Shown here piece by piece: positions 10,202 to 64,000 of a DNA stretch of 64,000 nucleotides. Where the stretch lies: contig WRHM01000001.1 of NCBI GenBank assembly GCA_009783265.1, positions 1 through 64,000 on the forward strand, read 5' to 3'. The notes beneath the pieces were generated by a model. The model made no database searches and was not told the origin of the DNA. It saw nothing but the letters and a program-made list of their open reading frames with translations. The position numbers and the translations under genes were made by a program. The stretch is from Oscillospiraceae bacterium. Its GTDB lineage: Bacteria; Bacillota; Clostridia; Oscillospirales; WRJC01. Position 1 is the stretch's first letter, and the number at the start of each line of letters is the position of its first letter.

Positions 10202-10239
10202 TAAAATTTTATTTAGTTATTTTATGGAGGTAAATTTAT

Positions 10240-10815: not shown

Positions 10816-10827
10816 AACAAAAATCAC

Positions 10828-10854: not shown

Positions 10855-10880
10855 TGTATTATTTATCTTTATTTATCTTT

Positions 10881-27800: not shown

Positions 27801-30097
27801 CCTCGCCTTTAGAAACAAATCTTATGCTCATACCGGAAAGAGACAGCGACGGCTTGAACGTGGCGAATGATTATGTGGCTGTGTTCATAGAGAACGCAGA
27901 CGTGACTATCACTTATGCGCCGCTGACATTTGGCAGTGACTGGGAGCCGCAAACGCCAAACAATCAGGGCGGCGAAGTGAGTGTATATTCGGAATCAGTT
28001 GCGCCTTTTACCGGAAATCCAAGTTCGACGGCAAGCGTGAACTTGGGATACACATTCATGGGTTGGTTTGAGTTGGGCGATGATTATGAAACTGACACGC
28101 CAATAGAAACAGAACTTGAATTCACTCCGGAAAGAGACATCTATGGCTTGAATGCGGCGAATGATTATGTAGCGGTGTTCAAAGAAAACGCTAAAGTGAC
28201 GATTTCATACGCGCCGCTGACATTCGATAATGAATGGGCCGCTCAGGAACCTGATAAAGGCGGCGAGTTGAGCAAAACGACAGAAAGTATCGCCCCTGCG
28301 ACAGGTACAGCGTCAGGCAGCACGGTTTCAGTGAACGACGGATATATTTTTGTAGGTTGGTTTAATTTGGGCGACAACTATGAAAAAGATACGCCGATAA
28401 GCACTAACGCGAAATTTGTGCCATCTAAAAACAGCGATGATTTGAATGTTTCAGGTAGTTATATAGCTGTATTTATAGAAAGCACTAACGTGACTATCAC
28501 ATACGCTCCGCTGACATTCGACAGCAACTGGGAGCCGCAGTATCCTGATGAACAAGGCGGAACCGTAGAACGCGATATAGAAAATATGCCTCCGGCAACC
28601 GGCACAGCATTGGGCAGCACGTCAGCGGCAAATGCAGGATATAGTTTTGTAGGTTGGTTTAATGCAGGCGACGATTATGAAAATGATACGCCGGTAAGCA
28701 CAGACGAAGAATTTATTCCTGAAAAAATAGACGGACTAAACGTAGCGGAAAACTATATAGCTGTGTTTATAGAAAACGCAGACGTGACTATCACTTATGC
28801 GCCGCTGACATTCGGAAATGACTGGAGTGTGCAGACGCCTGATGATAAAGGCGGCGAAGTAAGTGTGCTTTCAGAATTGGTCGCGCCGTTTACAGGCGAC
28901 CCGGCTTCTGCCGCGACTGTAAAGAATGGGTATTATTTTATAGGCTGGTTTAATTTAGGCGATGATTATGAAAACGACGCGCCGCTTAGCACGGACGAAG
29001 AATTTATACCTAAGCGGGACATCGAAGGGCTAAACGTAGCGGGAAGTTATGTAGCGGTGTTTATAGAAAACCTTGATGTGACTATCACTTATACGGCGAT
29101 AACTCTCGAAATCGGCTGGACAGAGCATTCGGGAGAAGACGGCGGTATCGTATCAACCGGAGTTGAGACTTTGCCCCCGGTTACCGGAAATGCGTTAGGC
29201 AGCATGGCAACAGAAAATTCAGGATATAGCTTTGTAGGCTGGTTTAATTTGGGCGACGACTATAAAAACGACGCGCCGCTTAGCACAGATGAAGAATTTA
29301 TACCTAAACGTGACAGCGACGGGTTGAACGTAGCGGGAAGTTATGTAGCGGTATTTATTAAAATTCCCGAAGAAAATCCCGGCGGGATTGAGCCGCCGGT
29401 TATCCCGACAAGAAGACCGCCGATAGTGATAATAACAACTGAATCTATAGAAGAATCCGAAGAATCTACAGAACCAACTGAAACAACAGAGCCGACAATA
29501 TCGGAAACCGAACCGTCAATAGAGCCGGAAGAAACTACTGAAGCAGCGACAGAACCATCAGCGTTGCTGACAGAACCGTCGATAACTTCTGAAGAACTCA
29601 CAGGAACAACAGATCTGTCAACACCGCCGACAGAACCGGCTTTAGATATACCGGAATCTACCGGAACAGCAGAGCCGACAGTTTCAGGTCCGGATGATAT
29701 TGTGGTGCTCCCCCCAGAAATAGAATTATTTGAATATAATAATTTTGAAGAATTGAGGAATAATTCTACACTGCTGTCTAACGGCTGGCTTGCGGTGGAT
29801 CTGGGCGAAGACTGGTGGCAGATATTTGATGAAAACGGGGTTGTGCTGGGCGTAATAAAATTACAGGACTATGAAAATATACAAGACTATGATATAGAAT
29901 TTATCAAATCAAAACTGACTCCAATTTCAAATGTAATGACAGCGGCTGAATACGCGGAATTAAATAAAAATAATACTACTGAAAATCCGAGAGATAATCC
30001 TCATACCGCCGATAATATAATTTTTGTATTATTTGCTTTGACGGCGATATGCGCCGCCGCCGCTATAATTATAAAAAAGAAGCTCTGGATAAGATAA
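15803..30097 (+). CDS. Giant cell-surface adhesin (collagen-binding-like, Cna-B/SpaA and InlB B-repeats)
   Basis: The 4764-residue secreted protein starts with a Sec signal peptide (MNKIRKKILIFIIVINMIAG, about 1-38) and a Thr/Glu/Pro spacer (41-105). Five Cna-A/collagen-binding-like beta domains follow (about 305, 452, 598, 755, 890 to 1030). Next come 19 Cna-B/SpaA prealbumin-like domains in the order A-B-C repeated six times plus a final A (1034-3145); conserved Lys and Glu suggest intramolecular isopeptide bonds. Then 14 divergent InlB B-repeats of about 98 residues (3150-4520), a second Thr/Glu/Pro spacer (4535-4632), a short domain, and an anchor with NPHTAD at 4732, a hydrophobic helix and a KKKLWIR tail. 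A role as a stalk-like adhesin is inferred. An excellent GGAGG precedes the ATG, and a terminator follows. It is the only gene of its unit. Confidence 0.93.
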   Translation: MTKMNKIRKKILIFIIVINMIAGILPGGIIAPLISHAEPELPGEITEQTPEETTESEPEETTDYTPYTPEETTESKTEETTEPEPETTTEAEPEETTEPEEAPEPPKELKPIDELREEVRAISQLMRGAFSLEGDFQDVVTQILSKSVSGTGLYLDDERLDSGAVVSLYDEITLRYDFEIETDEILALAENLYVPFLIPIPENIALGDDTAFPFIIKVNLDGVIYVIGIAEITGGEAYITFKGDYADGVEELNFWEQELDEFIFIEYAYFELPCGISDTEDETVEIVLLPEGDDPLIIYILENQKSKHEIEKECKVYDKDSLIFTWEITYTPGAITDESDYPLTVMDTFDNSKHVFVPGSLVIERGDEKLTGSVSHIPGKTVVSYELEEYNPAPITITYQTRLADDELGYHVVNTTGYTNIYGAPDSLITNSVTLVDDNDVTLLEPVSAEIIVEGKDKVWSYKRGTQSGRIINWTVTIHTLGRDLDNLVITDDLPTGLTLTGGVTVTNLDTGTAADAIITPTTTSFGVTINEPYAEKGYTLSYSTTIDDNYFDTSYGGSFTNTAEVDFDWNHYDYNGETGTTEETKRPAAYSIGDFNVVGKSGSYNRATHEITWSVTVNPYNVDVISGTITDDLSTRGQTYVDGSFNSGNPLITLDDVSFDNKILTIDVGNIGTASYSYTFKTTVDDPAIFAGNDSYDIYNALVGRYYYNSVTFVGDIQLRVPDPTDEDPEPDPSDYVYHVTTSATGSAWVTSRMIDKSGVGFNYNTGRATWQLIINKNNMAMTNAVLTDIVPVGQTFVPGSVSITGMVVDEDYTVNYNGETIVEDDTLIIIIPEVTAQTTITYQTEINPNLSADFKNQLLVDIENSATLVHDVHPGLTESATITVENNIVDKAGSFNAEDRAISYEVNLNLNAMTFAGATITDIIPPGLQLDISSVTLWNANVDSNGNFTKTDEKFYYDDPAFSYTLNSFTLKFPDGNGRYILAYDCYITNVSLRPYKNDIRLNDTGGVDGPPAESEDEIDIGSSGTGVSSKRVKLNIVKVDNLRTGVTLPGVKFELYQKIGTSESAPEVKIMEGETDANGEISFYPLKNGNKYILREVDGVDGYDDLTSINVVKNIVDGVTVDPKVLGKNELVLTITQDGGNTEFLEVANEPQLGYIKFTKLTDRAEKGVFEPVGEDEACFRITDQTPGSDYTDETYTDEDGIVFFANLPPFGIYKVEEIITPPYHTPAAPFYVEIDVYGDSYIDDPEHSGEKIEAFGFNDDSVVENVYFRPDLIITKTKANGTTPIEDVTFELCDAEGDSFAPPVTATTDSLGKAIFYDLYGGDSYVIKEVGTPLTGYYETGKYNTGVVNQAEDYTLLWRNYEHAASLEVTKVDEMRTGVLLSGAEFELYRDNGSGTAPAGTAIATETTAANGKLTFTNLSLNQNTTALTINAEPTLLSTDYWLVETVAPTGYILDPTPKKVTLNPATGGATPRTYTYTATVTNEPIEHGLIDLIFTKYSNKSSPYTLGSPLGATLDGVSFTMTDQTTGSDLVRTATSDAGGVVTFTDIPFGTYRIHEVAPVLYHKPLVDFYVTFDDAGNCTSFNGKSNPEPGDFVIVNEIFNPSLIITKTEANGTTAISGVVFELCDSAGNSFGTPIYATTNGSGQATFTGLLGGDTYVVKEVDTPLTGYYETGEYTIGPINQSGNYTYTWKNYEHAASIEVTKVDKMRTGVKVEGATFELYDNALCTGDPVGSATTNGSGIATFANLPLTQTTPLTINTEPVLESTDYWLVEVDEADGYILNSTSSKVTLNTRTEVNRVTIENEPVTADLDFTKYTDRDSGATLAGAVFSITDQTTGSDFTQTALVTGTDGLVSFTDIPFGRYLVEEITTPDYHTTVTRFYIEIDTAGKIVRFDDLYDDGDELDGDFEVTNLIKRTTLTITKRNDLGTAMNGVEFQLYRVVEEAEIPIGSALLTNSSGIVQFTGLMGGEKYRVKEVGTPLTGYYTTGVYELTTVNPDVAYTHTWTNYAHAASIEVTKVDKMRTGVLLSGAEFELYSDNGLGTAPNLVSGLVDTQTTGADGKLTFTGLELNQDTATLTTNAEPALEETIYWLVEKTAADGYILDTTPVKVTLAGGTATAIRTQNVPVTIENDPTKHDDITLTFTKYSNKSGPYTLGDTPIEGVWFWMKDMTEGSDYELWAKSDATGEVEFTDIPFGEYEIKEVVGDGSKVSAAVEYHKSLAAFEVEFDKDGYCISFNGIDDPDESDFVVINEIYNPDLVITKTEANGTTPIEGVVFELCKSNGDSFDTPIYATTNSGGVATFTGLLGGDSYIVKEVGTPLTGYYETGEYTIGPVNQQTNYAYTWRNYAHAASLEVTKVDELRTGVKVEGAIFELRLDNDGEPGGLVGTKTTDSNGKLKFEGLTLNQNTVSLTTDSEPILAKTTYWLVETEAASGYILDITPVKVELDPAAAGAANPRTHIYTATLENTPVTVDMSFTKYTDRDPDTPIMNATFRITDQTIGSTFYLEEDSTGVVDFTNVPHGRYLMEEILTPDYHYTMTPFYLTINDEGILTEFGGLDDEDGLSGPFSVTNEIKKTTLTITKQDDGGTPLEDIAFELYRVTYPGEVETETKIGSAQTTDEFGKVTFTGLMGGETYRVKEVETPLDGYYTTGVYELTIDQPDVADNSEEERELVPYTYTWVNYRHAASVKVTKHDSMREGVLIEGAEFELYASDEEGDITGAVIDTEITDEYGEIIFTNLPINQNTTLLTTNTEPVLEETIYWLVEKTAATGYNRTEDPIELVLNPADAGEENPRTYTYEFKVENEPAHHEDTALKFTKYSNKISAYTLGNTPIEGVWFKMTDQTAGSDYELWAKSDEYGAVTFNNIPFGLYKIEEVDGDESDTPSAVEYHKYLSAFYVEFDEDGNCISFNGKASPTTGDFAIINEIYNPDLIITKIDADGTTPIEGVTFELCDDDGDSFDTPVYATTNGSGIATFGLLGGDSYIVKEVTPNGYYISGVYEIDTVDQDEDSEYTWVNYAHAASLEVTKFDAEYDTEPVNGATFALYRDDGSELAPDLVGGLIGAQTTDASGKITFNNLPLNQNTGTLTTDDEPILEETIYWLVETGKASGYELNDNPIKVTLDPTDAGEANPRTFKYTAKVTNEPEHVTITYAPLTFGSDWVGQTPDNQGGSVDIESEIITAMVEEAEGSTATEKPGYTFVGWFELGDDYENDMPIATELEFTPARVSGLNVAGSYVAVFKEDTDVTITYAPLTFDSDWTAQSPDNQGGTVSPSGAHDYAPYTGEPESTATANVGYIFMGWFYLGDDYDTDEPITTAAKLEPERVGGLNVAGSYVAVFIEDTDVTITYAPLTFGNDWSEQKPDDQGGDVSVYSESVAPYTGEPESTASVNLGYTFMGWFALGDDYDTDDPITTAAKLEPERVGGLNVAGSYVAVFIEDPDVTITYAPLTFDSGWEPQDDEFGGEVSDASESIAPATGTASGSTATEKPGYTFVGWFELGDDYDIDTPITTAAKLEPERVGGLNVAGSYVAVFKEDPDVTITYGTKTFGSGWTTQADSLGGSVDPSGAQNYAPFTGEPESTATSNSGYTFVGWFESTADFTTDTPITTAAKFEPERDGDGLNVAGSYIAVFKENSNVTITYAPLTFGNNWTAQSPDNRGGTVSGGSETLAPATDTASGSTANANAGYSFVGWFNLGDDYETTTPIETNLEFTPERVGGLNVSGDYVAVFKENSNVTITYSPLTFGSDWSEQTPDNQGGEVSITTEDVTPATGEPSSTSSANAGYTFVGWFNLGDEYDTDDPITTALKLEPEKVGGLNAAGNYVAVFQEDPDMTITYAPLTFGSDWSSQSPDNLGGTVSPSGANDYAPYTGEPESTASANSGYTFIGWFNLDDDYENDTPLTTDEEFIPERDSYGLNIAGSYVAVFKEDADVTITYAPLTFGNDWSTQSPDNKGGTVSNTNEILAPATGMALGSTATANAGYSFVGWFEFREDGNYEEASPLETNLMLIPERDSDGLNVANDYVAVFIENADVTITYAPLTFGSDWEPQTPNNQGGEVSVYSESVAPFTGNPSSTASVNLGYTFMGWFELGDDYETDTPIETELEFTPERDIYGLNAANDYVAVFKENAKVTISYAPLTFDNEWAAQEPDKGGELSKTTESIAPATGTASGSTVSVNDGYIFVGWFNLGDNYEKDTPISTNAKFVPSKNSDDLNVSGSYIAVFIESTNVTITYAPLTFDSNWEPQYPDEQGGTVERDIENMPPATGTALGSTSAANAGYSFVGWFNAGDDYENDTPVSTDEEFIPEKIDGLNVAENYIAVFIENADVTITYAPLTFGNDWSVQTPDDKGGEVSVLSELVAPFTGDPASAATVKNGYYFIGWFNLGDDYENDAPLSTDEEFIPKRDIEGLNVAGSYVAVFIENLDVTITYTAITLEIGWTEHSGEDGGIVSTGVETLPPVTGNALGSMATENSGYSFVGWFNLGDDYKNDAPLSTDEEFIPKRDSDGLNVAGSYVAVFIKIPEENPGGIEPPVIPTRRPPIVIITTESIEESEESTEPTETTEPTISETEPSIEPEETTEAATEPSALLTEPSITSEELTGTTDLSTPPTEPALDIPESTGTAEPTVSGPDDIVVLPPEIELFEYNNFEELRNNSTLLSNGWLAVDLGEDWWQIFDENGVVLGVIKLQDYENIQDYDIEFIKSKLTPISNVMTAAEYAELNKNNTTENPRDNPHTADNIIFVLFALTAICAAAAIIIKKKLWIR
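18904..25245 (+). repeat. Higher-order DNA repeat coding for 19 Cna-B/SpaA domains
   Basis: Three domain types recur in the order A (EVTKVDEMRTG), B (FTKYSNK or FTKYTDR) and C (IITKTEANGTTPIEG). A domains begin near 18907, 19912, 20911, 21855, 22871, 23875 and 24880, a period of about 1.0 kb. B alternates between a TKYTDR form (units 1, 3, 5) and a TKYSNK form (2, 4, 6), and C units 3 and 5 differ from 1, 2, 4 and 6, so a larger two-unit period of about 2 kb is visible in the middle. Confidence 0.88.
25253..29365 (+). repeat. 14 tandem divergent InlB B-repeats
   Basis: Each unit of about 294 bp starts VTITYAPLTF, has GGxVS in the middle, then GYTFVGWF and ends GLNVAGSYVAVF. Fourteen VTITY/VTISY/MTITY starts can be counted. 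Units 2, 5 and 8 share a PSGAxxYAPxTGEP variant, which suggests copying in blocks of three. The repeats produce long antisense ORFs in the track. Confidence 0.88.
29996..30013 (+). other. Sortase-type sorting motif NPHTAD in adhesin C-terminus
   Basis: The codons for NPHTAD precede a hydrophobic helix (about 20 residues) and a positive tail, the standard layout of a cell-wall sorting signal. The motif differs from LPxTG and from the NPxTGD form common in Clostridia by Ala in place of Gly. Confidence 0.6.
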
Positions 30098-51433: not shown

Positions 51434-52162
51434 TTATATTCCCTCCCCATCGTATCTTTTGTAAAGCTTGTTGTTATATTCAATATTCGGGGGATAATTC
51501 ACGCTCTTTAATATACTGGGCGTGATATTTTTTTCTATTAGTTTTTCCACTAACTCAGCGCATAAAGCCCAGCATATATAAGCCGCCGCAAGTCCCGAAG
51601 CGGGTATAAACGGGGCCTCGATACCGTCAATATCGAGCATTGCGTCGCCGAAAGGCGCGCAGTTATCAATAGTCACATCGGCTAATTCAAAAAGCCTTTT
51701 TTTACATGAATGACCGGATTCAAGCGTTTTTGAATATTCTATAGAAGTTATCCCGATAACTTTCACGCCCATTTTTTTGCACTCAACTGCCAGATCTATG
51801 ACATTAAGCGTTTTTCCCGACACAGAGCCGATTACCATAATATCGCCCGGTAATATATTCCCGCTTCTCAGAGCATATTCCGCAAGCCCTTCCATTGATG
51901 TGTTTTTACCGTCCATTGAGCGTTTCCAGCCGGACGATTCAACGCCGTTATGATACCTGAAACGGCGCATCAAAACAAGCCCTCCCGCACGGTTCAATAA
52001 TTCAGAGTCGATTATATGCCCCGTGTCAAACAAGTGAATACAGCCGCCGTTTGCCACGCTGTCCGCCATAATTTGCCCGGCGGCTTCGATATTTGCTTTC
52101 TGTGAATTGCGAATTTTCTCAAAAAGCCCCGACGACGCGTCAAAAAACCGTTCTTTTAACAT
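51434..52162 (-). CDS. SIS domain sugar isomerase-like protein (UPF0309-type)
   Basis: From ATG at 52162 (MLKERFFDAS), preceded by AAAGGTGAG, the protein has 242 residues. The SIS fold is seen in GGCIHLFDTGHIIDSELLNRAGG, VIGSVSGKTLNVIDLA and VIGITSIEYS. SIS domains bind phosphosugars. It is paralogous to the gene at 53363-54109. An R motif lies 92 nt upstream, after the membrane-protein gene. The track's GTG start at 52174 lies in the ribosome binding site. Confidence 0.88.
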   Translation of the reverse strand: MLKERFFDASSGLFEKIRNSQKANIEAAGQIMADSVANGGCIHLFDTGHIIDSELLNRAGGLVLMRRFRYHNGVESSGWKRSMDGKNTSMEGLAEYALRSGNILPGDIMVIGSVSGKTLNVIDLAVECKKMGVKVIGITSIEYSKTLESGHSCKKRLFELADVTIDNCAPFGDAMLDIDGIEAPFIPASGLAAAYICWALCAELVEKLIEKNITPSILKSVNYPPNIEYNNKLYKRYDGEGI

Positions 52163-52254
52163 AATTTTTCTCACCTTTCACGTTTTAATATATTTTTTTA
52201 TTTTATTGTGTTGTTTGTGTTAGAAATATATTTATAAATAATCTTTGATAGTGA

Positions 52255-53352
52255 AGAAAATGCTTATTAGTAGTATTATTTCTTATTTTCAGATGCAAAT
52301 AAGGGCATGATTGTCATATTAAACCGTGCCGGAGTTGCTTCCCACTCCTCGGGAGTTAAATCTATTATAACCGTGTAGATTCCGGCCTTAAAAAGCATCG
52401 GTTGGACTTCCTCGTTGATCTCAACGCCGGTCGTATAATATATAGTTTTAACTTCCCCGAAAGCATTGCCGGTGATATGCACAATCCCAAAAACATCCCG
52501 ACTTCTGCTGCTTATAATAAGACAGTAATCGCCCTCTTGCGTGATTTCAAAATTATACTCTCCATGAAATTCATTCGAGGTGAAACTGATTTCAAATATG
52601 GGTTCCGGTTCAGAGGGCAAAGACCAAATAATCAATACTGCATTAAGCGGTACTAAAAGAGCCATACTGACAAAAGCGATAATTTTGATATTCCTGTTGT
52701 TTTTTATTGCGTCGTTTACTTTCGGCTTATTAATAAATTTATAAATCATACGTGAAATAAATATTAACAGCAATGCCCACAAAACAGAAATTACGCCCTT
52801 AAATATCGACTGGTAGAGAATAAATAACCCAGTTTCGGAAAAATCATTTATCATTAAAAAACTAATAAACAAACTTATAATAAACATTAAAAAAGGCGTA
52901 AGCGCAACAAATATTTCCCGTTCTTTTCCGGCAAATGCGATACAATACAGAGCAGGGACAGAAGAAATCAATATGTATTGCGTGAAAACAAAAATCCAGT
53001 TATTATCGTTTATTTTTGTTCCCGGCACGGCGATATTTATACAATATATTATGGCAAGAGCAGTTGTGGCAAGTATAATCCATTTGACCGCTTTAAACTC
53101 AAATTTAACGCGTAATACAGCAACAGGTACGCAGATTGCGGAATATAATAATATTAAAAATAAATGATTTAATAAATCAAAAGAAGATAATATATATATT
53201 AAAAAAAATCTGTTAGAATAAATAAAACTTAAACCGACAATACAAAGCAAAACTATAAACGCGATTATTCCTATTCTTCTTTGTTGTTCTTCCAAAACCT
53301 GCCACTCCTTCTCCCGACTTGTTTTACTATGTAAAATATAAATTCTCTGCGT
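52255..53352 (-). mobile_element. Candidate cassette 3 with L and R end motifs (membrane-protein gene)
   Basis: Read on the minus strand, L motif ACGCAGAGAATTTATATT (ending at 53352) lies 10 nt after the stop of one SIS gene, and R motif CTACTAATAAGCATTTTCT (52273-52255) lies 92 nt before the next SIS gene. R is identical to the copy at 43827-43845 over 19 bp. L matches L1 at about 18 of 21 positions. The cargo is one membrane-protein gene of low similarity to its neighbours, which separates two paralogous SIS genes. Confidence 0.45.
52276..53295 (-). CDS. Hypothetical polytopic membrane protein
   Basis: I do not recognise it. The 339-residue protein has about seven or eight hydrophobic helices in residues 8-235 and then a beta-rich extracytoplasmic domain of about 100 residues (FEISFTSNEFHGEYNFEITQEGDYCLIISS ... 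YTVIIDLTPEEWEATPARFNMTI), resembling a PPC- or carbohydrate-binding-like sandwich. Start is TTG with AGGAG upstream. Its content is unlike the sugar genes on both sides, and it sits within candidate cassette 3. Confidence 0.75.
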   Translation of the reverse strand: MEEQQRRIGIIAFIVLLCIVGLSFIYSNRFFLIYILSSFDLLNHLFLILLYSAICVPVAVLRVKFEFKAVKWIILATTALAIIYCINIAVPGTKINDNNWIFVFTQYILISSVPALYCIAFAGKEREIFVALTPFLMFIISLFISFLMINDFSETGLFILYQSIFKGVISVLWALLLIFISRMIYKFINKPKVNDAIKNNRNIKIIAFVSMALLVPLNAVLIIWSLPSEPEPIFEISFTSNEFHGEYNFEITQEGDYCLIISSRSRDVFGIVHITGNAFGEVKTIYYTTGVEINEEVQPMLFKAGIYTVIIDLTPEEWEATPARFNMTIMPLFASENKK

Positions 53353-53362
53353 TTTAATTTTT

Positions 53363-54109
53363 TTATAAATATTTTATCCTGTTTCTGTATCTTTTCATAA
53401 GCACGGCGTTTTTTTCGTCGCCGCCGTCAATATTCGCGCTGATAAATACCGGAGGGGTTATGCCCCGGTCTATAAATATCCCCGCAGCCTGCGCAGTCAC
53501 AGCGTTTATTATCGCCGCTCCGGTAACAGTCGAAGTCGGCGATGTTTTTTGCACAAACCCGTCGATTTCAATTGCCGCGTCGCCGGTTTCGCCGCAGTTA
53601 TCTATAACCAAATCCACGACTTCATATAAATTTTTGCCGCTTGTTGAGCGCGATTTCGACGCTTTTGAATATTCAAGCGACGTTATCCCTATAATATATG
53701 CCCCAAGTTCACGCGCCCTTATAGCCATATCGACAGGCACGGCGTTTCTTCCCGAAACTGAGTGAATTATAAGCAAATCGCCCTTTTTTATATTATATTC
53801 GTCCGCGATTATCGCCCCGTAGCCGTCAATTCTCTCAATTTTGCTTGTCAGAGTCGAAGGCGTAATATCGCACATCAATCCGGGCGGGAAAATCGGGTTT
53901 ATCACCGCAAGCCCGCCTGTCCTGTAAAAGGCCTCCTGCGCTATTATCCCGGCGTGCGTACACCCGAATATGTATATAATATTATCGTCGCTGTCTGTGA
54001 CCGTATCGACAATTTTTTCCGCTGCTTTTTGCATATTTTCGCCCTGTTCGTCAAATAAACGTTTTAATACGGCGTTTATCTTTTCATAGTATTTTATAAT
54101 ATAATCCAT
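53363..54109 (-). CDS. SIS domain sugar isomerase-like protein (UPF0309-type)
   Basis: The 248-residue protein shares the family layout with the gene at 51434: IYIFGCTHAGIIAQEAFYRTGG, LIIHSVSGRNAVPVDMA, IIGITSLEYSKASKS and VIDNCGETGDAAIEIDG. It binds phosphosugars, possibly as an amino-sugar phosphate isomerase or deaminase; no MurQ signature is present. ATG follows GGAAAGGTGA. It lies 31 bp after the BadF-type kinase gene, a natural partner. Confidence 0.88.
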   Translation of the reverse strand: MDYIIKYYEKINAVLKRLFDEQGENMQKAAEKIVDTVTDSDDNIIYIFGCTHAGIIAQEAFYRTGGLAVINPIFPPGLMCDITPSTLTSKIERIDGYGAIIADEYNIKKGDLLIIHSVSGRNAVPVDMAIRARELGAYIIGITSLEYSKASKSRSTSGKNLYEVVDLVIDNCGETGDAAIEIDGFVQKTSPTSTVTGAAIINAVTAQAAGIFIDRGITPPVFISANIDGGDEKNAVLMKRYRNRIKYL

Positions 54110-54140
54110 TAAATAATTATCACCTTTCCGTTAAAATTTG

Positions 54141-55163
54141 TTATTTATTAAATTTAAATAAATAATCTTTAAATTCTTTTTCTAATCGCTTTTGATCCTT
54201 CCCCGAAATTTTATATTTTCCGGTTTTATCAAAAATAAACTTGACTACACCGCTCATTACAGGGTCAAAAAGCCCGTGCCTGCATATTATACCGGGATAA
54301 ACGCCGCTTATTGTCTCAGCCATTGTCTCAAGCATATACGGCGTGCCTTTCCATGCGCCGCCGCTCGCGTATATCACGGGATTTTCTTCCGCAATATCCG
54401 TCATGTTTTCGCTTTCGGCTTTTTTTAATACGCTGATAACCTGAAGTCCCATATCCCTGCCCGCCGAATATATTATTTCTTTCGCGATTTTATCCCCCGC
54501 TTTTTCACATTCGGCCACAGATGGGCAAAATCCGGCAAACAAAACGCGCTGGTTTAAATTTTTTTTATATAACGTTTTTGTAATTAAATACGGCTTGTCA
54601 ATATTCAGATATTTATATAATCTTTCAGTCAGCAATGTCTTTTCTCCCCAGTTATTTATATTTTTTATAGCCGCAGACATGCCTTGTATGCCTATATATG
54701 CTCCGCTGCCCTGATCGCCTACCGGTATGCCGTAACCGCCCAAATGCAATATTTTATCTTTATCGCAGTATATTGCGCCCGAACCTGTTCCGGCAAGAGC
54801 GACGACGCCTTTATCTCTCAATGACGCGGCATAGACATGACTGTGGCCTTCGGATATGACGTGAAATATTGCATCTTTGACAAATCCGCCGCATTCGCGC
54901 TTTAATATATTATTAAAAAAGCTGACCGAGCCGACTATTGTTTCGTATATATCTTTTATTTTGAAATCCCCGGTTAAATCATATAAAATCGCAATTAATA
55001 ATTTTACCGCTTCGGATATATTTTCGCGGATTTTTTTATCGCTTTCAAAATTCGGGTTTACCGAGCCGGATTTACTTTGCGCAATAAAATTCAAATCATC
55101 GTCAAAGGCTATAATTCTTAAACTTGTCCCTCCGCCGTCCACAGATAAATTTATATTTTTCAT
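54141..55163 (-). CDS. BadF/BadG-type ATPase, N-acetylglucosamine kinase-like
   Basis: The 340-residue protein has the ASKHA-fold phosphate-binding loop LSVDGGGTSLRIIAFDDD at its N-terminus, the second loop VALAGTGSGAIYC and GGYGIPVGDQGSGAYIG, as in NagK-type kinases of the BadF/BadG/BcrA/BcrD family. It probably phosphorylates GlcNAc, GalNAc or a related amino sugar released by the operon's glycosidases. ATG has AAGGG upstream. Confidence 0.88.
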   Translation of the reverse strand: MKNINLSVDGGGTSLRIIAFDDDLNFIAQSKSGSVNPNFESDKKIRENISEAVKLLIAILYDLTGDFKIKDIYETIVGSVSFFNNILKRECGGFVKDAIFHVISEGHSHVYAASLRDKGVVALAGTGSGAIYCDKDKILHLGGYGIPVGDQGSGAYIGIQGMSAAIKNINNWGEKTLLTERLYKYLNIDKPYLITKTLYKKNLNQRVLFAGFCPSVAECEKAGDKIAKEIIYSAGRDMGLQVISVLKKAESENMTDIAEENPVIYASGGAWKGTPYMLETMAETISGVYPGIICRHGLFDPVMSGVVKFIFDKTGKYKISGKDQKRLEKEFKDYLFKFNK

Positions 55164-55223
55164 TATATTTTTTCCCTTAAATGACTTTAAATCAAACGCA
55201 GTTTTTATGTTTGATTATTATAA

Positions 55224-57251
55224 TTATTTTCCGGTTATAAAAATCAGCGAAGCCGAACGCGGTTTATCATGGCTGAGCGTATATCCGTTTATCAAATCGC
55301 CGCCCTTAAAACAGCCTATAACGCCTTTGTCAGCGTCCCTCAATTCATATTCTTTTTCAGTATTTAACATTGGCAGCTTGATTTTACATGACGGCATTTC
55401 GCAATCTTCCATTCGAAAAGCGAATAATACGCCTTTGTCAGCTTCCGGGTCATAATACATATAACTTGTCCAGTTTGTTTTATCAGTTTCCGGTTTCCAG
55501 TCTGTCAGGACATAAAAATCTTTAAGTAAAAATTCTTTTACAGAATCCCATTCGTTTAATCCAAAACGCAGCATATCAAAATCGGTGTCCGGGTCTTGCG
55601 TCCACTGGGCAGACAAATGAAAAACAGGCGTATAAGAAGCCCTGAATATATAAACGTCGCGTTTCCCGTCGGCGGCAAGCTGTTCGTTCTGTTCTACCGA
55701 AGCCGCTCCGCATAACGGTATCCATTTATTGAACGACGTAGTCATAGAAAGCCTCAGCGAAGTAGTAGTACGGTCAGAATCGCTCCGCAGCAGCGGCACG
55801 CCGCGCCGCATTGATTCTAAATCGTTGCGTCCCCCGCCGCTCGCGCAGGAATCCACAAACGTGTCTTTGTTATTTTTGCCGCAGTATTCTATGATTTTAT
55901 CCCAGAGCTTATAATGCCCGACTACGGCCTTATTTTCAGTTATTCCCATACGGTTTTCGCCTTCGGATTGGTCTGCGTCCGTCCAGCACTTAGTCGGATA
56001 GCAATTATTATCTTCGCGGTACATGTCCACGCCGTTTTTATCCATCATTGATATAATTCGCCCCGCAGTCCATTCTAAGCATTCGGCATTGCCGATATTG
56101 TTCGAGATAACGCCGTTGCCGTCGGGCATTGCCCATTCGGGTTTATAACCGTAATTTTCGATAAGCCCGTCTACGTGCGTGACGCGTTCCGGCTCGAACC
56201 ATGTAAGGGTTTTCATGCCGTGGTCACGGGCGAAATCTGTCGATTCCCTGAAAGTTTTGTCAGGCCATTTAATTGTGTCAAGTTCCCATGTGCCGACAGT
56301 TCCCCACCAATCGGTATCGACTGTTTTGCCGTAAGGGTCAAAATACCAGCCCGCGTCAAACCATCTGTAACCGGATTTTATTTTTTCGCCGAGCATTTTT
56401 TCAAGCGACGGTTTCCACGTAAAATAACGTTCTGAGATGCTCCCGTCTGAATTAGGGAGACCAGTATCGCCTGATATACAGGTAGTGCTGAACGGTTTTA
56501 GGGGATCTCCTTGCGCGTTCAGGCGCGGCATATTGCAGTTGATATACCAGCTGCGCCATAAATTAGTCGCGTAGTTTTCGTTGCGAATTGTGTATGGAAT
56601 AAATAACATCAGGGCAGTCCTGACGCTTTCGCCCGGCTTGAGATATGCGCATAAATCGTTGGTTCCCGCACCTATGAAATGTGTTTTGCCGCATGCCCCG
56701 ACGTGAAAATCGGCTTCCCATGTCCCTCCCCAGCCAAGCGCAATCAGAGTTCCGCCGTTGCCATGTTCAAGATTATAATACGGGAAATAAATATGCGTGG
56801 GTTTGCCTATACCAGATTTATGATTTACGCCGCTGTCGCTTAATTTATGCTCATAAGGCCTGTATTGGTTCTGATGATCGCCGAGTATTCCGCGTAAAAC
56901 GGGATTTTCACCGGAGAATATCATATCCGCGGACTTTAGGTTGCTTATTATTTCTGTATTTACGCTGCCTGTATTCTGAAACCATATAGTCCATTCATAC
57001 GCTCCGTAATTTTCATAATACGCGGTTTCAACAGTTATTGTAAGATTATCGTCGGCGTTTAAAATAAATATATTTTCTTCTTTTTCGCCTTTGGTTACAG
57101 TTGTTTTGCTCAACTGCCTGAATATATTCCGGTCAAACCCATAATAAGCTGTGCCGTCATATACAAAACTGACAGGCAGAGTTCCGAGATTGCTAATATA
57201 TCCGTCGTATACTTCTCTTGACGCAGGATTTTTGTAATTTGCTGCTGACAT
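55224..57251 (-). CDS. Alpha-galactosidase, GH36 family
   Basis: The 675-residue protein has the GH36 pattern: N-terminal beta-sandwich, then the barrel with YRWFDAGWYFDPYG, MKTLTWFEPERV, the nucleophile-region GVDMYREDNNC (Asp near 405) and the acid/base region SCASGGGRNDLESMRRGVPLLRSDSDRTT (Asp near 490). The usual KxDxNR is MYREDNN here, so the substrate may differ from melibiose. No signal peptide: intracellular. First gene of a six-gene minus-strand operon with a consensus promoter at 57291-57319. Confidence 0.9.
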   Translation of the reverse strand: MSAANYKNPASREVYDGYISNLGTLPVSFVYDGTAYYGFDRNIFRQLSKTTVTKGEKEENIFILNADDNLTITVETAYYENYGAYEWTIWFQNTGSVNTEIISNLKSADMIFSGENPVLRGILGDHQNQYRPYEHKLSDSGVNHKSGIGKPTHIYFPYYNLEHGNGGTLIALGWGGTWEADFHVGACGKTHFIGAGTNDLCAYLKPGESVRTALMLFIPYTIRNENYATNLWRSWYINCNMPRLNAQGDPLKPFSTTCISGDTGLPNSDGSISERYFTWKPSLEKMLGEKIKSGYRWFDAGWYFDPYGKTVDTDWWGTVGTWELDTIKWPDKTFRESTDFARDHGMKTLTWFEPERVTHVDGLIENYGYKPEWAMPDGNGVISNNIGNAECLEWTAGRIISMMDKNGVDMYREDNNCYPTKCWTDADQSEGENRMGITENKAVVGHYKLWDKIIEYCGKNNKDTFVDSCASGGGRNDLESMRRGVPLLRSDSDRTTTSLRLSMTTSFNKWIPLCGAASVEQNEQLAADGKRDVYIFRASYTPVFHLSAQWTQDPDTDFDMLRFGLNEWDSVKEFLLKDFYVLTDWKPETDKTNWTSYMYYDPEADKGVLFAFRMEDCEMPSCKIKLPMLNTEKEYELRDADKGVIGCFKGGDLINGYTLSHDKPRSASLIFITGK

Positions 57252-57290
57252 AAATTATTGACCCCCTGATTTTTATTCTGTTTGAATAAT

Positions 57291-57319
57291 ATTATAATAT
57301 AATATAGTCCCGCTGTCAA
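57291..57319 (-). promoter_or_regulatory. Promoter of the alpha-galactosidase operon
   Basis: Minus strand TTGACA, 17 nt, TATAAT: both hexamers consensus. The -10 sits in an AATATTATAATATAATAT-type near-palindrome, a possible operator. Confidence 0.85.
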
Positions 57320-57349
57320 TAATATTACATCAATAAATCATAGTATTTG

Positions 57350-57397
57350 AGCAAAAACAAATGCCTCAGTTCCTGCTTAAACAAGAAATCGAGGCAT
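57350..57397 (-). terminator. Terminator after the MBOAT gene
   Basis: ATGCCTC and GAGGCAT form the base of a hairpin with an inner TTCTTGTTTAAGCAGGAA stem, followed on the minus strand by TTTGTTTTTG. It separates the MBOAT unit from the alpha-galactosidase operon. Confidence 0.75.
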
Positions 57398-57434
57398 CTA
57401 AATATTTATATTTATTTAACGCGCGAATTATTTA

Positions 57435-58883
57435 TTAAAATCTGAAATACAGGAAAGGATTGAAATCTGACCCGGTCAAAAATATAACGGAAAGTATTAA
57501 TATCGCTATGCAGCCCGCAATACTTACCCAGCTTGCGGCTTGTTTCAGAGGGGATAAATCTTCGCATTCAAAATGATTCTTTTCCTCTCCAAACAACTCT
57601 TTTTTTATAAACGGCAATATGGGCGCGCTGAACAGCATTCCCGATAATATCGCGATTAAGATTATTATATTTAAACTGGCAAGCACGGTATTTAACCCGC
57701 CCGTTGAAAAATTAAACATGCACTTTATATATTCAAGCGCTTTGCCCAAAGTTTCAGCCCTGAAGATAACCCAGCCGATCAGTACGACAAACATAGTATA
57801 AACCCATGTGACGGCGCGGGGAAGTTTTCTCAGGATTTTTCCCCATGCTCCGCGTTCGAGCATCAAAAATACACCGTGATACAATCCCCATACCACAAAC
57901 GACCAGCTTGCGCCGTGCCATAACCCGGTCACCGTAAAAACAATCAAAAGATTTATATATGTCCTGAAAACGCCTTTTCTGTTTCCGCCTAAGGGTATAT
58001 ATAAATAATCCCTAAACCAGCTTGACAGCGATATATGCCATCTTCTCCAGAAATTCTGGACTGTATTTGATATATACGGATAATCAAAGTTTTCTAAGAA
58101 CTCAAACCCGAACATTTTACCCATGCCTATCGCCATGTCCGAATATCCCGAAAAATCGAAATAAATTTGCAGAGCGTAACATATCGCCCCAATCCATGCC
58201 ATAACCGAAGCCGGCGAAGAAGCGTTAAAAGCCCGGTCGGCAAATACGGAGACCTGATTTGCTATAAGAACTTTTTTTGAAAGCCCTATAATAAATCTCT
58301 GCATTCCCGAAGCTATATTGTTTATATTTGATTTTCGGTTTTCAAGCTGTTTTTCTATATCTATATATCTCACGATCGGTCCGGCGATTAATTGCGGAAA
58401 AAAAGATATATATAATGCGAGATTAAAAATATTCTTTTGGAATTTTACTTTGCCGCGATACACGTCGATTACGTAAGACATAATCTGAAAAGTAAAAAAC
58501 GATATGCCTATAGGCAGGGCTATATTTGACTTAATATTTGTTTTGAAAATCCAGTTCAGGTTTTCCGTTAAAAAATTAAAATATTTATAATATCCCAAAA
58601 GATATATATTAAATATAACTGTTGCAGCCAGAGCCAGTCTCTGATAAACCGGCTCAAAATTATTTTCTTTTAAATTATGTATCAAAATACCGAAAAGATA
58701 ATTCATAAGTATAGAATAAAGCATCAGCAATATAACTCTTGGTTCGCCCCAGCCGTAAAAAATCAGCGAAGCGAAAAGCAATAATATATTTTTTGCGGTT
58801 AATAGCTTTTGCGGTATGATATGATACGCCAGTAATACGGCAGGCAGAAATATAAAAAGAAACAGCGTTGAACTGAAAATCAT
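57435..58883 (-). CDS. MBOAT family O-acyltransferase (AlgI-like)
   Basis: The 482-residue protein has about eleven membrane helices and MBOAT signatures: LPIGISFFTFQIMSYVIDVYRG, the RRWHISLSSWFRDYLYIPLGG segment and TGLWHGASW with the catalytic His. AlgI-type MBOATs move acyl groups, usually acetyl, across the membrane for O-acylation of polysaccharides. It is paired with an AlgX/DHHW-like gene, 33 bp upstream in the same unit. Confidence 0.93.
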   Translation of the reverse strand: MIFSSTLFLFIFLPAVLLAYHIIPQKLLTAKNILLLFASLIFYGWGEPRVILLMLYSILMNYLFGILIHNLKENNFEPVYQRLALAATVIFNIYLLGYYKYFNFLTENLNWIFKTNIKSNIALPIGISFFTFQIMSYVIDVYRGKVKFQKNIFNLALYISFFPQLIAGPIVRYIDIEKQLENRKSNINNIASGMQRFIIGLSKKVLIANQVSVFADRAFNASSPASVMAWIGAICYALQIYFDFSGYSDMAIGMGKMFGFEFLENFDYPYISNTVQNFWRRWHISLSSWFRDYLYIPLGGNRKGVFRTYINLLIVFTVTGLWHGASWSFVVWGLYHGVFLMLERGAWGKILRKLPRAVTWVYTMFVVLIGWVIFRAETLGKALEYIKCMFNFSTGGLNTVLASLNIIILIAILSGMLFSAPILPFIKKELFGEEKNHFECEDLSPLKQAASWVSIAGCIAILILSVIFLTGSDFNPFLYFRF

Positions 58884-58916
58884 AAATTTTAGATACCTTT
58901 CGATATTATTTTTAAA

Positions 58917-60329
58917 TTATTTCACAGAATTAAAAATTAAATACTCCCATAGAGAATCAATAATATTAGGTCCCAAATCTAATATTACAATATCGTTTTG
59001 ACCCCATGACGGCGCGTTGCCGCCAATATTATAAATAAACTGTTCGTTGACTTCAAGCAGCACAAATTTTGTTTTATCTATTTCGTGTTTCCAGTTTATG
59101 TCTATATCCCCGCCGTTATTGTAATAATAACCGGACATCTCAGACGCTATCCCGAACGAGCCGAAATAATGATAAAAATCCCCTGTGAAACTGCCTCCCT
59201 GAATAAGCATGTGTTTTATTGCGGGTTTGCCTGTGTTTGACGTGTATGCGTCATGCCAGTAATATTTTTCGTCAACTATGGCGTTTTGCTTTTCTTTTTT
59301 CTTGCCTGAATAAACTATGCCGAAAATATCCATTTCAGGGTTTCCGAATCCGGGAGGGTTTTGGCTGAACCGGATTTCGTCTGCGGCAAGATGCTTGATT
59401 TCTTCGCCTGTCTGACGTTCATATTCTGCGATTATTGCGACGCATGTCTCAAACGAGGCGAATTTGTTCCAGTGTATGCCTGTTTTCGGGAAAGTATTTG
59501 TCAATCCCAAAGATTTATAAAGCGCCGACGAATCAACAAAATAAACTTCTGCTTCTTTAAGAAAATCCACAAATCTCAGATACGGGCGAATATAATCTTC
59601 GGAAATAGTTTTGTTCTGAGCGATATACCAGTCCGGGATATAATCCGGCATGGCCGAGGCTTTGCTTGGGGAAATCGCAACGCAGAAAGCTATATCCCTC
59701 AGGGCGAGTTCGTTCTGGATTTCTTTTAATATTTTAACCCTTGATTTAAGTTCTATGTCAGTTACGTTTATATATTTTTGTGCGTAGCCGTAATATTCGT
59801 TTATATAGCCGTTTTCATAAAGGCAGCCGTTTTTGCCGATTATGACATGCTCCGTCCCCCTGTATCCGTCAGGGTCGTAAAGAATTTCCTGAGGCAGGTT
59901 ATATTCAGGGAATCTTGGCTCGATTATTATAATTTCTTCCGGTTCTTCTTCAGGCTCTTCCTCGGGCGGCTCAATGATGTTATCCGGAGGGACTTTAAGA
60001 AAATTTATATTTACGCTGTCTTTTTTTGCGTCCAGTACCCCGTATATTTCTACTATTTCAGGTCTCAGGGGATATTTTGTGGAAAACCAGTTTTCAAAAT
60101 CTTTTTGAAATTTTCCGATAAAAAACGTACTGATACTGAAACCGGGCAGCTCATAATCTTTTTCGCCATCCAAATCATGCGGCGCCTCGCCTATAATAAA
60201 AAGTAAAATTAAAGGTATTGCTATTATATAAACGAACAGCGTGATCATAACTGCGCTCTTAATGATTTTCAAGTCCGTTTTACTTTGCGGGGGTGAATCC
60301 GTTGTTTCGTTAGATTCGAATTTCGACAT
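58917..60329 (-). CDS. AlgX/DHHW-like extracytoplasmic acyltransferase partner
   Basis: The 470-residue protein has an N-terminal membrane anchor (about 25-50), an acidic low-complexity insert near residue 130 (EEEPEEEPEEIIIIEP) and an SGNH-type domain. Motifs are VIGKNGCLYE, ISPSKASAMPDYIP, TGIHWNKFA (the HW motif of AlgX/AlgJ/DHHW) and LIQGGSFTGDF, which contains the probable Ser nucleophile. It should accept the acyl group from the MBOAT and place it on an exported polysaccharide. First gene of the two-gene unit. Confidence 0.85.
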   Translation of the reverse strand: MSKFESNETTDSPPQSKTDLKIIKSAVMITLFVYIIAIPLILLFIIGEAPHDLDGEKDYELPGFSISTFFIGKFQKDFENWFSTKYPLRPEIVEIYGVLDAKKDSVNINFLKVPPDNIIEPPEEEPEEEPEEIIIIEPRFPEYNLPQEILYDPDGYRGTEHVIIGKNGCLYENGYINEYYGYAQKYINVTDIELKSRVKILKEIQNELALRDIAFCVAISPSKASAMPDYIPDWYIAQNKTISEDYIRPYLRFVDFLKEAEVYFVDSSALYKSLGLTNTFPKTGIHWNKFASFETCVAIIAEYERQTGEEIKHLAADEIRFSQNPPGFGNPEMDIFGIVYSGKKKEKQNAIVDEKYYWHDAYTSNTGKPAIKHMLIQGGSFTGDFYHYFGSFGIASEMSGYYYNNGGDIDINWKHEIDKTKFVLLEVNEQFIYNIGGNAPSWGQNDIVILDLGPNIIDSLWEYLIFNSVK

Positions 60330-60381
60330 AAAAAACTCCTTGTTTCCGTTCTGAAAAAATTATTTGAATTATATATTATAT

Positions 60382-60410
60382 ATAATATCATGGTTTTCGT
60401 GAAAATTCAA
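60382..60410 (-). promoter_or_regulatory. Possible promoter of the AlgX-MBOAT unit
   Basis: Minus strand TTGAAT, 17 nt, TATTAT, about 50 nt before the start codon. Confidence 0.45.
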
Positions 60411-60558
60411 TTTATTTTAAAAAATATCGGCGGATAATATTGTTTTATTTAAACCGGAAATGTGAAAAACGCAAATAATCGTTGCTTTACTTTATAATTT
60501 TTTAATGATAGAATATAAATATATGCTTATATTTTATAATACGGAGATTATATATTTT

Positions 60559-62139
60559 ATGAAAAGGCTTAATATAATGTTTGCCTCAGAAGAGAATTTC
60601 AATAAATGGATTTATAACAGGTCGGACTGGGAACAAACCAGAAAAGATTTGAATATGACGGAAGTTATAAATTATTTTGAAAAAAGCTCAAAAGATTTCC
60701 CGGCCGAATATTTGTATAAGCCCTGCTTAGAGCAAACAGACGCGGATTACAGATTGGAAATAATGGACGAACTTTTGGCCGATGGGGAATTGTTTAAAAA
60801 TATATCTGATTTTTGTATTCTTATAAGAAGATTCAAAATGCTTCTGCGCGATTTTAAAGAAGAAAAACATGAAATTCAAAAGCAATACAGGTTTTTATTG
60901 CTATGCGGAGAATTTACGGTAATAGCAGGCAATTTAAAAATAATACTTTCAGAAGCCAAGTCCGGGGGTCTGAAAGCATTATATGATTTCTGTTCTGAAA
61001 TTACAGGCGATGAAAAAATTAAATTTATGGATAAAGAATCCGGCTGCCTGATTAACGAGATAAATATTATATTAAAAAATACGGGAACCGCAATAAACCG
61101 GGCTGAAAAGATACTCACAGTTATTGACTGCGAAGAAGCTGGAGAAGCCGATCTCCTAAAAGAAGAAATTTTTGACTTGTACGGGATAAAAATAAAAGAC
61201 GGGTTTTCAATAGTAGACCCGCTGCCTTTATCTTATCTTGAGGAAAAAGTTTTGGGAATTTTAATAGAAAATCATGAAGAAACTTTTTTGAACCTGAAAG
61301 CATTTTTTGACGTTTATAATTCCGACGGGCAAATTATGGATAACATAAAAATTATCGCGGATCTGCTTCCGCAGTTTATATTTTATATCACATATCTGGA
61401 ATTTGTCAAAAATGCCGGACAAAACAGATTGCCGGTATGCAGGCCGGTTTTCGGCGAGGACGGTTTTTATGCTGTTGATGGCGCGGGAATTGCCCTGATT
61501 ATAAAATTTTTCGCCGAAAAATATCCTGTTGAAAATATTATATGCAATGATATAAAACTGCCAAAAAGCGGGACGTTTATTTTATCGGGACCAAATCAGG
61601 GAGGGAAAACTATTTATCTTAAAATGGCAGGGTCTTCAGCTTATCTGGCAAAATGCGGCTGTTATGTATTCTGCAGGGAATGCCGCTTGCCGTTTTACGA
61701 TAATATCCTGACTCATTTTTTGCAGAAAGAAATTTTAGGTAAAAGCCGTTTAATTGAAGAAATCGAAAGAATAGAAGTGCTTTCCCGGCAATTCAGCAGG
61801 GACAGTCTTGTTTTATTAAACGAAAGTTTTACAAGCACAAGAAGAAAAGACAGCGTAGATATTGCAGTTCACTATATCAAAAAATTTGACGAAACCGGCT
61901 GTTCTGTGGGGTTTGTCAGTCATTTTTATGAAATACCGGAGATATATAAAAACGGTGAAAATAATATTATCTCTCTGAGGAGCGGAATCGGCGAAAACGG
62001 CATGAGGACATATAAAATTTCAGAGCAGAAAGGCGACGGTTTCGCATACGCGCGCGATATAGCGCAAAACTGCGGCATGACATATAAACAGTTGATTGCC
62101 GATATAACAAATAATATAAAAACAGCGGGGAAAAAGTGA
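60559..62139 (+). CDS. MutS-core ATPase, first of a pair
   Basis: From ATG at 60559 the protein has about 526 residues. The N-terminal half is helical, like MutS domains III/IV (lever and clamp); the C-terminal half is a MutS-type ABC ATPase with Walker A LSGPNQGGKT near residue 344 and Walker B SLVLLNESFTST, then SHFYE as the H-loop. It lacks the mismatch-binding domain I and the MutS2 Smr domain. The Walker B Asp is Asn (LLNE for LLDE). A second ATG (60577, AAAAGG upstream) is possible. Its stop overlaps the next gene's start by 4 bp. Confidence 0.83.
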   Translation: MKRLNIMFASEENFNKWIYNRSDWEQTRKDLNMTEVINYFEKSSKDFPAEYLYKPCLEQTDADYRLEIMDELLADGELFKNISDFCILIRRFKMLLRDFKEEKHEIQKQYRFLLLCGEFTVIAGNLKIILSEAKSGGLKALYDFCSEITGDEKIKFMDKESGCLINEINIILKNTGTAINRAEKILTVIDCEEAGEADLLKEEIFDLYGIKIKDGFSIVDPLPLSYLEEKVLGILIENHEETFLNLKAFFDVYNSDGQIMDNIKIIADLLPQFIFYITYLEFVKNAGQNRLPVCRPVFGEDGFYAVDGAGIALIIKFFAEKYPVENIICNDIKLPKSGTFILSGPNQGGKTIYLKMAGSSAYLAKCGCYVFCRECRLPFYDNILTHFLQKEILGKSRLIEEIERIEVLSRQFSRDSLVLLNESFTSTRRKDSVDIAVHYIKKFDETGCSVGFVSHFYEIPEIYKNGENNIISLRSGIGENGMRTYKISEQKGDGFAYARDIAQNCGMTYKQLIADITNNIKTAGKK

Positions 62140-63707
62140 TGAAAAATATAGATTTGCTTTATTTTGACAATAAAAATAATAATTATCAGCCTGCCGACGC
62201 AGGGCGCGTGAATGATTTATTTATATCTGACATGGGAATTGAGCATATTAAAAATTTAGAGGGATTTTTCGGTTCTGAAACATATAATATTTTTATAAAT
62301 ACTATAAGCGTCCCGTTGACAGACGCCGAGAAAATAAAAGAACGCCAGAATATTTTGAAAGATTTTATGGAATATCCGGGGATTGCCCAAAAAATGAAAT
62401 CTATATGCGACGAGATAAAAATAAACAAATGCCAGTCTCCTGAAACCGACGCAAAACAAAGGATGATAGATTTTCGGAATATTTTATATAGTTCGATGGA
62501 TGTTTCGCATGAGCTTGCCAAACAGCTTACGCACAGGGACTTTCAAAGCGATTCGCTTAAAGATTTGAGAAATCAGCTTGATTGCCGCGAAAAAACAGAA
62601 AAAGTAAAAGAACGCATAAACGCTATAGTTGATCTGTGTTTAAATGACAATCTTGTTTTAAATATAGAATACGGCTCCGGGTTTAAATTTAAAAACGCGT
62701 ATATATATTCCGGCGAAAATAATAATAAGCAGGAAATAAAAGAAAACGCTATATTAAAATTTTTTCAAAACAGAATCCCCAAACAAAAAGAAATCGTCAG
62801 CGGTTTTTATTACAACGAAAACTTTTTAGTGGCGGAAGAAGTAGAGGGAGAAAAAGGAATAATACCGTTGATAGCTCCGTATTTTGTATCTGTAATCTCA
62901 AATTTGAACAGGCATATACTTAATTTTTGCGCGTCATTATCCAAACATCTTTCGTTTTATATAGCTTGTATAGAAATCGTAAAATTCATGGAAAACAATA
63001 ATATAAAAACAGTTTATCCTGAATTTCACGGCGGCGAAAAAGGCATAAACGCGAAAAATCTATACGATTTTGGGCTTCTGCTGCCCAAACCAGACCAAGA
63101 GAATAATAATATTAATTCCGTAACTCCAAATGATTTTGACGACAGCGGAAATAATATATATTTAATTTCCGGGGCGAATCAGGGAGGTAAAACAACTTTT
63201 TTGAAAAGTATCGGAATCGCGCAGTTATTTGCGCAGGCAGGATTAAAAATACCTGCCGAAGAATATAAATGCCCGGTATTCAATAATTTTTTCAGCCATT
63301 TCCCGAAAGACGAAGACGAAGCTTTAAATTTCGGCAAATTAGCCGAAGAACTTACCCGTCTAAAAAAAGATATGCCGATAATAACGGACAACGCTCTTGT
63401 TTTATTAAACGAATCGTTCGCGACTACAACAGAAACTGAAGGATTTGAAATTGCGGCGGATATGCTTAAGGCTGTATCTGCATCTGAAACGCCGCCGAAA
63501 ATTTTATTTGTTACGCATAATTATCAGTTATTGAAAAAACGTCATGAAATCGGCAGGCTTTTAGAGCGTGAAACAAAAATAAAGAGTCTGATTGTATCAG
63601 AAGGGAAAAACACAACAGACAGGACATATAAAATAATCGAGGGCGAACCGCAGGAAAATATTAATACCGCAGGTTTTTTAAATAATCTGTTTTTTACAGG
63701 GTCTTGA
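62136..63707 (+). CDS. MutS-core ATPase, second of a pair
   Basis: The 523-residue protein has the same plan as the gene before it: helical N-terminal half and MutS-like ATPase with LISGANQGGKTTFLKS near residue 346, Walker B ALVLLNESFATTTETEG and a THNYQ H-loop. Sequence identity between the two is modest, so they diverged long ago but kept synteny. The 4-bp overlap suggests stoichiometric production and a heterodimer, like MutSalpha or MSH4-MSH5. No MutL is near. Role in DNA repair or recombination is inferred only from the fold. Confidence 0.83.
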   Translation: MMKNIDLLYFDNKNNNYQPADAGRVNDLFISDMGIEHIKNLEGFFGSETYNIFINTISVPLTDAEKIKERQNILKDFMEYPGIAQKMKSICDEIKINKCQSPETDAKQRMIDFRNILYSSMDVSHELAKQLTHRDFQSDSLKDLRNQLDCREKTEKVKERINAIVDLCLNDNLVLNIEYGSGFKFKNAYIYSGENNNKQEIKENAILKFFQNRIPKQKEIVSGFYYNENFLVAEEVEGEKGIIPLIAPYFVSVISNLNRHILNFCASLSKHLSFYIACIEIVKFMENNNIKTVYPEFHGGEKGINAKNLYDFGLLLPKPDQENNNINSVTPNDFDDSGNNIYLISGANQGGKTTFLKSIGIAQLFAQAGLKIPAEEYKCPVFNNFFSHFPKDEDEALNFGKLAEELTRLKKDMPIITDNALVLLNESFATTTETEGFEIAADMLKAVSASETPPKILFVTHNYQLLKKRHEIGRLLERETKIKSLIVSEGKNTTDRTYKIIEGEPQENINTAGFLNNLFFTGS

Positions 63708-63776
63708 AATATTATAAATAAAAAATATTTATTTTTAAGGCTTAAAAGAGGTCTATTGCTTATTTACAGAAAACAG

Positions 63777-63998
63777 CTAACAAAACTCTTTTAAAATATC
63801 TTTTTTGATTTCTAATCGCATGGTTTTATTAACAAGTTCGCATACCCGTAAATTACCGTAAAAACCTATAACAAGCCCCGCGTCAACATGCGACAGATTA
63901 TAATATGCTTCGAGTATATACCGCATATCCGAAACTGCAAACGCGCTTGCTTCTTCAATCGTAGCCGCCGACGCCGTCGTTGAGATTATATCGTCTGA
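63777..63998 (-). CDS. C-terminal fragment of an unrecognised protein (runs off the window)
   Basis: The minus strand is open from the right edge to a TAG at 63777-63779, giving 73 residues (SDDIISTTASAATIEEASAF ... MRLEIKKDILKEFC). It is missing from the ORF track because its start is outside. Codon use and composition look like coding sequence. I do not recognise the family. It converges with the MutS-core pair. Confidence 0.55.
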   Translation of the reverse strand, partial: SDDIISTTASAATIEEASAFAVSDMRYILEAYYNLSHVDAGLVIGFYGNLRVCELVNKTMRLEIKKDILKEFC

Positions 63999-64000
63999 TA

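Follow-up and report, generated by a model that had tools for sequence, protein, structure and literature searches.

A widespread tandem pair of short MutS-fold ATPases with asparagine in Walker B, and the link of its main branch to fluoride stress

Several lines of work frame what can be expected of a protein built on the MutS core. MutS2 acts on collided ribosomes, and KamC is the ATPase that reactivates lysine 5,6-aminomutase. From a different direction, Weinberg 2010 named mutS among the gene classes associated with the crcB motif, classed it as DNA repair and proposed DNA-damaging stress as the occasion for its expression (PMC2864571). In a 2024 review, by comparison, fluoride resistance is put down to exporters, antiporters and overproduced target enzymes, inhibition of enolase by fluoride is treated as established, and DNA repair goes unmentioned (PMC11139923). 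Here we describe two short MutS-related proteins encoded side by side. Literature searches on KamB/KamC, on MutS7/MutS8 and on fluoride together with MutS turned up no description of the pair, and the pairing itself, the missing mismatch domain and the asparagine discussed below are undescribed in the literature that could be searched.

The window, by which we mean the whole stretch of 64,000 nucleotides analysed here, carries two overlapping genes close to its end, both on the forward strand. Gene A (60559..62139), the first subunit, encodes 526 residues counted from the ATG at 60559 (the longest frame, from 60505, would give 544), and gene B (62136..63707), the second subunit, encodes 523 residues from a GTG start; each comprises MutS domains III, a short IV and V, as judged from the ORF call, Pfam, a structural model and its position in clade A or clade B of the trees. 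The stop of A and the start of B share the four nucleotides GTGA (62136..62139), and an overlap of exactly 4 nt recurs in 60 of 78 relatives, a count in which the start closest to the A stop was taken and which may thus be biased toward overlap. The arrangement is probably one of translational coupling. A sequence-only reading of this DNA had called an overlapping pair of about 525 residues each, with a GGKT Walker A motif near residue 345 and an asparagine for the Walker B aspartate in both, and in all these respects it was right. Walker A reads GPNQGGKT at residues 344-351 of A (61588..61611) and GANQGGKT at residues 346-353 of B (63171..63194), as placed by the ORF translations and the family alignment. 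Walker B is LVLLNES in both proteins, its LVLLNE portion lying at residues 417-422 of A (61807..61824) and 421-426 of B (63396..63413), so that Asn421 and Asn425 replace Asp, and the glutamate that follows is retained. Across the families, 54/54 A and 61/62 B sequences have the asparagine, and the glutamate is conserved in the same proportions (54/54 and 61/62). In a small branch represented by two loci (L043 and L044, genomes G015 and G037), gene B reads LLNDSF, the asparagine being retained and the catalytic Glu changed to Asp. The equivalent of the MutS signature loop is GKSRLIEEIER in A (394-404; 61738..61770), where MutS has GKSTFMVEM, and GKLAEELTR in B (400-408; 63333..63359), with the Gly and Glu405 conserved in 62/62 B sequences and the Arg in 61/62; in both subunits the STF signature of MutS has given way to GK-L-(D/E)E-x-x-R.

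Both proteins also have a reduced clamp-like insert, delimited by model and conservation at residues 174-225 of A (61078..61233; low confidence at 196-214) and 170-242 of B (62643..62861; low confidence at 195-240). In the AlphaFold single-chain models, which were built with family alignments (A: pLDDT 88, pTM 0.87; B: pLDDT 80, pTM 0.82), this small insert accompanies lever helices and the ATPase; it is the least conserved internal part of A and B, and confidence is low in its core. The lever helices that had been read from the sequence are therefore in the models, and the clamp is there too but shortened. Pfam matched MutS_V in A (1.9e-15) and B (6.5e-17) and MutS_III in B below threshold. 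The claimed absence of domain I and Smr stands, since the Pfam search returned neither of them, nor domain II, in A or B, and the proteins are too short for the mismatch-recognition domain I. With NCBIfam, A and B fell below every cutoff, their best weak matches being KamC, MutS1 and MutS2. The top Foldseek matches of the two models are MutS, MSH2 and MSH3, and the lists also hold 3k0s, the engineered E. coli MutS D693N, and 1nne, an ADP-BeF3 form.

Other genes of the window were noted in passing. The neighbours at 57435-60329, an MBOAT acyltransferase and an AlgX/SGNH-like protein forming an O-acetylation pair, are divergent from the MutS pair. A cluster at 51434-57251 encodes two SIS-like proteins, a BadF/NAGK-like ATPase and an alpha-galactosidase-like enzyme, named by sequence reading only, and a 4764-aa ORF at 15803-30097, with 13 SpaA/prealbumin-like domains, collagen-binding domains and InlB/List-Bact repeats, is a giant surface adhesin. 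The genome further contains one MutS1 and, on contig 12, a second and distant tandem pair of short MutS genes with Asn in both (L036, C12:55001-66128, at 7476-10898 of that locus), upstream of which a two-gene unit (405/447 aa plus 176 aa) occurs in two copies on the opposite strand.

The obligate pairing of A with B, which had been read from this one locus, is strongly supported by its relatives. Gene A is followed in tandem by gene B in 79 of 80 loci from named genomes, which were retrieved with a profile of B and hence chosen by similarity to B; the remaining locus is cut by a contig end. The recurrent overlap, the single ancient duplication described below and a natural fusion, in which two short MutS modules share one 1116-aa frame (L197:3037-6387, genome G099, contig C55), all point the same way. 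That genome additionally carries an unfused tandem (L198). Within the order of the host, 59 genomes were surveyed; most of their short MutS genes form adjacent pairs, and the single ones seen carry Asp. Frequent single occurrence was thus not seen when co-occurrence was surveyed, the single-copy relatives forming an Asp-type outgroup. These singles, exemplified by L040, L041, L046, L052 and L056, make up an uncharacterised family of their own, distinct from the pairs, and several of them adjoin or follow a small gene that, judged by eye, resembles a membrane protein. The suggestion that the family belongs to Clostridia proved too narrow: the named relatives span 18 phyla of Bacteria and Archaea, two of them archaeal, and the main branch is connected with fluoride stress. 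Viral contigs contained no relative of the pair and phage matches were confined to the ATPase region, and a phage or virus origin was accordingly rejected; an anti-phage defence system was likewise rejected, PADLOC being empty for A and giving only P-loop-level matches for B.

Placement in the MutS family tree put A and B in clades of their own, apart from MutS1, MutS2 and KamC. In an IQ-TREE analysis of 60 ATPase cores, with which a larger FastTree tree agrees for the A protein of the window, MutS1, MutS2 and KamC lie on one side, followed by the Asp-type singles and then by all pairs. The A protein of the window falls in clade A (96/88) and its B protein in clade B (96/94); KamC groups with MutS2, and neither A nor B shares a clade with MutS1. 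The first genes of the other pairs join A (98/89) and their second genes join B (91/78), with the Asp-type singles outside, which implies that a single duplication founded all pairs. A and B therefore derive from one ancient duplication, and asparagine in Walker B marks the pairs. The subunits also differ from each other: the switch His is invariant in B (62/62) and mostly replaced by Phe in A (38 Phe, 16 His; the A protein of the window has His).

The main branch of the family belongs to the fluoride stress regulon. Rfam placed fluoride riboswitches (RF01734) in at least 10 of the 18 loci scanned, and directly upstream of gene A in four of them (L087, L094, L097 and L102). A covariance model of our own, built from the riboswitch sites that Rfam had found in the pair loci, gave 83 matches in 1.07 Mb, distributed over 44 of the 80 loci and standing directly before A in 28 of the 68 that were testable; this model recovers exactly the three riboswitches annotated by RefSeq on an E. 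coli plasmid, and it found none around MutS1, MutS2, KamC, the gut pairs or other pairs. Because the 80 loci were picked by similarity to B, an evenly drawn sample matters as a check. Among 243 Clostridia genomes the model gave 72 matches, 59 genomes having any switch at all, and in all four genomes with a main-branch B a switch lay no more than about 1.7 kb from the pair; in three of these it stood before A. Plasmids of Klebsiella, Rhodococcus and E. coli carry the pair within complete fluoride-resistance islands together with crcB, enolase and pyrophosphatase, to which some islands add CLC and phosphoglycerate mutase, and one has the riboswitches annotated by RefSeq. Neighbours in the named loci comprise enolase (13 of 80), CrcB, universal stress proteins, cation/proton antiporters, hydrogenase-type subunits and a dynamin-like GTPase, the last found beside the fluoride-linked pair at L153:10371-12158 and in 10 further loci (11 of 80). 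A homologous fluoride-resistance operon, that of Enterobacter cloacae FRM, functions without the pair (PMC5533749), which counts against the stress model set out below.

The pair in our window belongs to a gut-Clostridia branch with a different context. Neither Rfam nor our own model found a fluoride riboswitch above cutoff in window positions 57000-64000 or in the rest of this genome, and the genome, about 91% complete, had no match to the fluoride exporters CrcB and CLC, so that fluoride may play no part in this host. The gut Bacillota pairs as a group have neither the riboswitch nor any of the fluoride neighbours, and no gene neighbour recurs among them. Without the switch, the trigger in this branch would be a different one, or the pair would be constitutive. 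Since the fluoride-linked members form a derived clade in the IQ-TREE tree, fluoride control may have been recruited to an older function.

We give about even chances to a model in which A and B make up an obligate heterodimeric stress ATPase of the MutS fold that does not serve mismatch repair. The two subunits would pair head-to-head like MSH2-MSH6, and each ATP site would be completed by the GK-L-(D/E)E-x-x-R loop of the partner. The Walker B asparagine would weaken magnesium coordination and thereby prolong the ATP state, for which the D693N form of E. coli MutS, reportedly altered in its handling of magnesium, would be a precedent. By its context, and by analogy with MutS2 and KamC, such a complex may work as a remodeller, slow and gated by ATP, that releases a jammed protein or ribonucleoprotein complex, and it would be called upon by stress that disturbs phosphoryl-transfer enzymes and not by mismatches. 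In the main branch this would amount to a function in the fluoride response, often controlled by the riboswitch; in the gut-Clostridia branch the complex would run without one. In a more far-reaching version, toward which we are doubtful, the pair would stand as an additional functional class among the MutS proteins. It would be an obligate heterodimer, founded in a single duplication together with the loss of the Walker B Asp and spread widely over bacteria and archaea; its dedicated task would be recovery from poisoning by fluoride or phosphate analogues, and mismatches would never have been its business.

The fold, which is nearest to MutS, MSH2 and MSH3, can also be read as that of a DNA-repair clamp, in which the heterodimer would encircle branched, stalled or damaged DNA and recruit repair under stress. 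This would agree with the listing of mutS as a DNA-repair class of the crcB motif and the DNA-damaging stress proposed with it (PMC2864571), and the charge of the lever/clamp region of B resembles that of MutS1. However, domains I and II are missing, the clamp has shrunk and shows little conservation, repair genes are absent among the identified recurring neighbour families, and the lever region of A is acidic, at -3.9 per 100 aa in the family and -6.5 in the A protein of the window against -0.2 in MutS1. We regard a repair clamp as unlikely.

Two further alternatives draw on relatives of known function. The enolase, phosphoglycerate mutase and pyrophosphatase genes that adjoin the pair in fluoride islands could be taken to indicate a KamC-like enzyme reactivase pulling Mg-fluoride-phosphate or a dead cofactor from an enzyme such as enolase or pyrophosphatase, the more so as KamC provides the precedent of a short, Smr-less, MutS-side ATPase within an enzyme operon and the 2024 review regards fluoride inhibition of enolase as established (PMC11139923). 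Yet KamC clusters with MutS2 rather than with A and B, no enzyme partner is constant across loci, enolase included with its 13 of 80, and these enzyme neighbours are absent in gut members, so that we consider this alternative quite improbable. A role in ribosome rescue like that of the MutS2 core, in which ribosomes frozen by translation GTPases trapped with fluoride and metal would be split, could appeal to the levers and ATPase that the pair has kept and to MutS2 itself, a relative from outside the family for which solved entries exist (8qpp and 7qv3); but the pair has neither KOW nor Smr, it has a shortened clamp and falls apart from MutS2 in the tree, and translation genes are not recurrent neighbours. 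This last possibility seems to us very unlikely.

Under the far-reaching version given above, what the fluoride regulon calls 'mutS' would in fact be this recovery machine, and its label as a DNA-repair gene would be a misnomer. An always-paired, widespread MutS-fold ATPase under a fluoride riboswitch is an unexamined component of fluoride resistance. For work on MutS proteins it provides a naturally occurring family in which both subunits have Asp changed to Asn, the substitution made by design in the E. coli protein (D693N, PDB 3k0s), and an asymmetry between subunits that resembles eukaryotic MSH heterodimers.

With MutS1 and the MSH2-MSH6 heterodimers the pair shares the fold of domains III-(IV)-V, MutS_V and two non-equivalent subunits, but it differs from them in having no domains I and II, a short clamp, Asn for Asp, the GK-L-E-E-R pattern in place of STF and a clade of its own. 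MutS2 likewise does without domain I and has the lever core and ATPase in common with the pair, which for its part has no Smr or KOW, is arranged as two genes and forms its own clade. That neither MutS1 nor MutS2 follows this plan had been correctly remarked; yet KamC, on the MutS2 side, is also short (about 510-540 aa) and Smr-less, with a MutS-side ATPase. KamC differs in being a single gene in an aminomutase operon, in retaining Asp and in grouping with MutS2. Against the KamC model NF052383, with its cutoff of 300 bits, the window pair scored 59.4 and 56.7 bits, and identity with KamC or another aminomutase reactivase was rejected on this weak score and the wrong clade; lysine aminomutase (PF09043) had no match in the pair's own genome or in any control genome. 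The nearest counterparts are the 'mutS' class of the crcB motif (RF01734) and the pairs that RefSeq calls 'MutS-related protein'. That listing has a single mutS, termed DNA repair, and the branch in our window has no riboswitch, but the A and B clades, the gene order and the asparagine in Walker B are shared.
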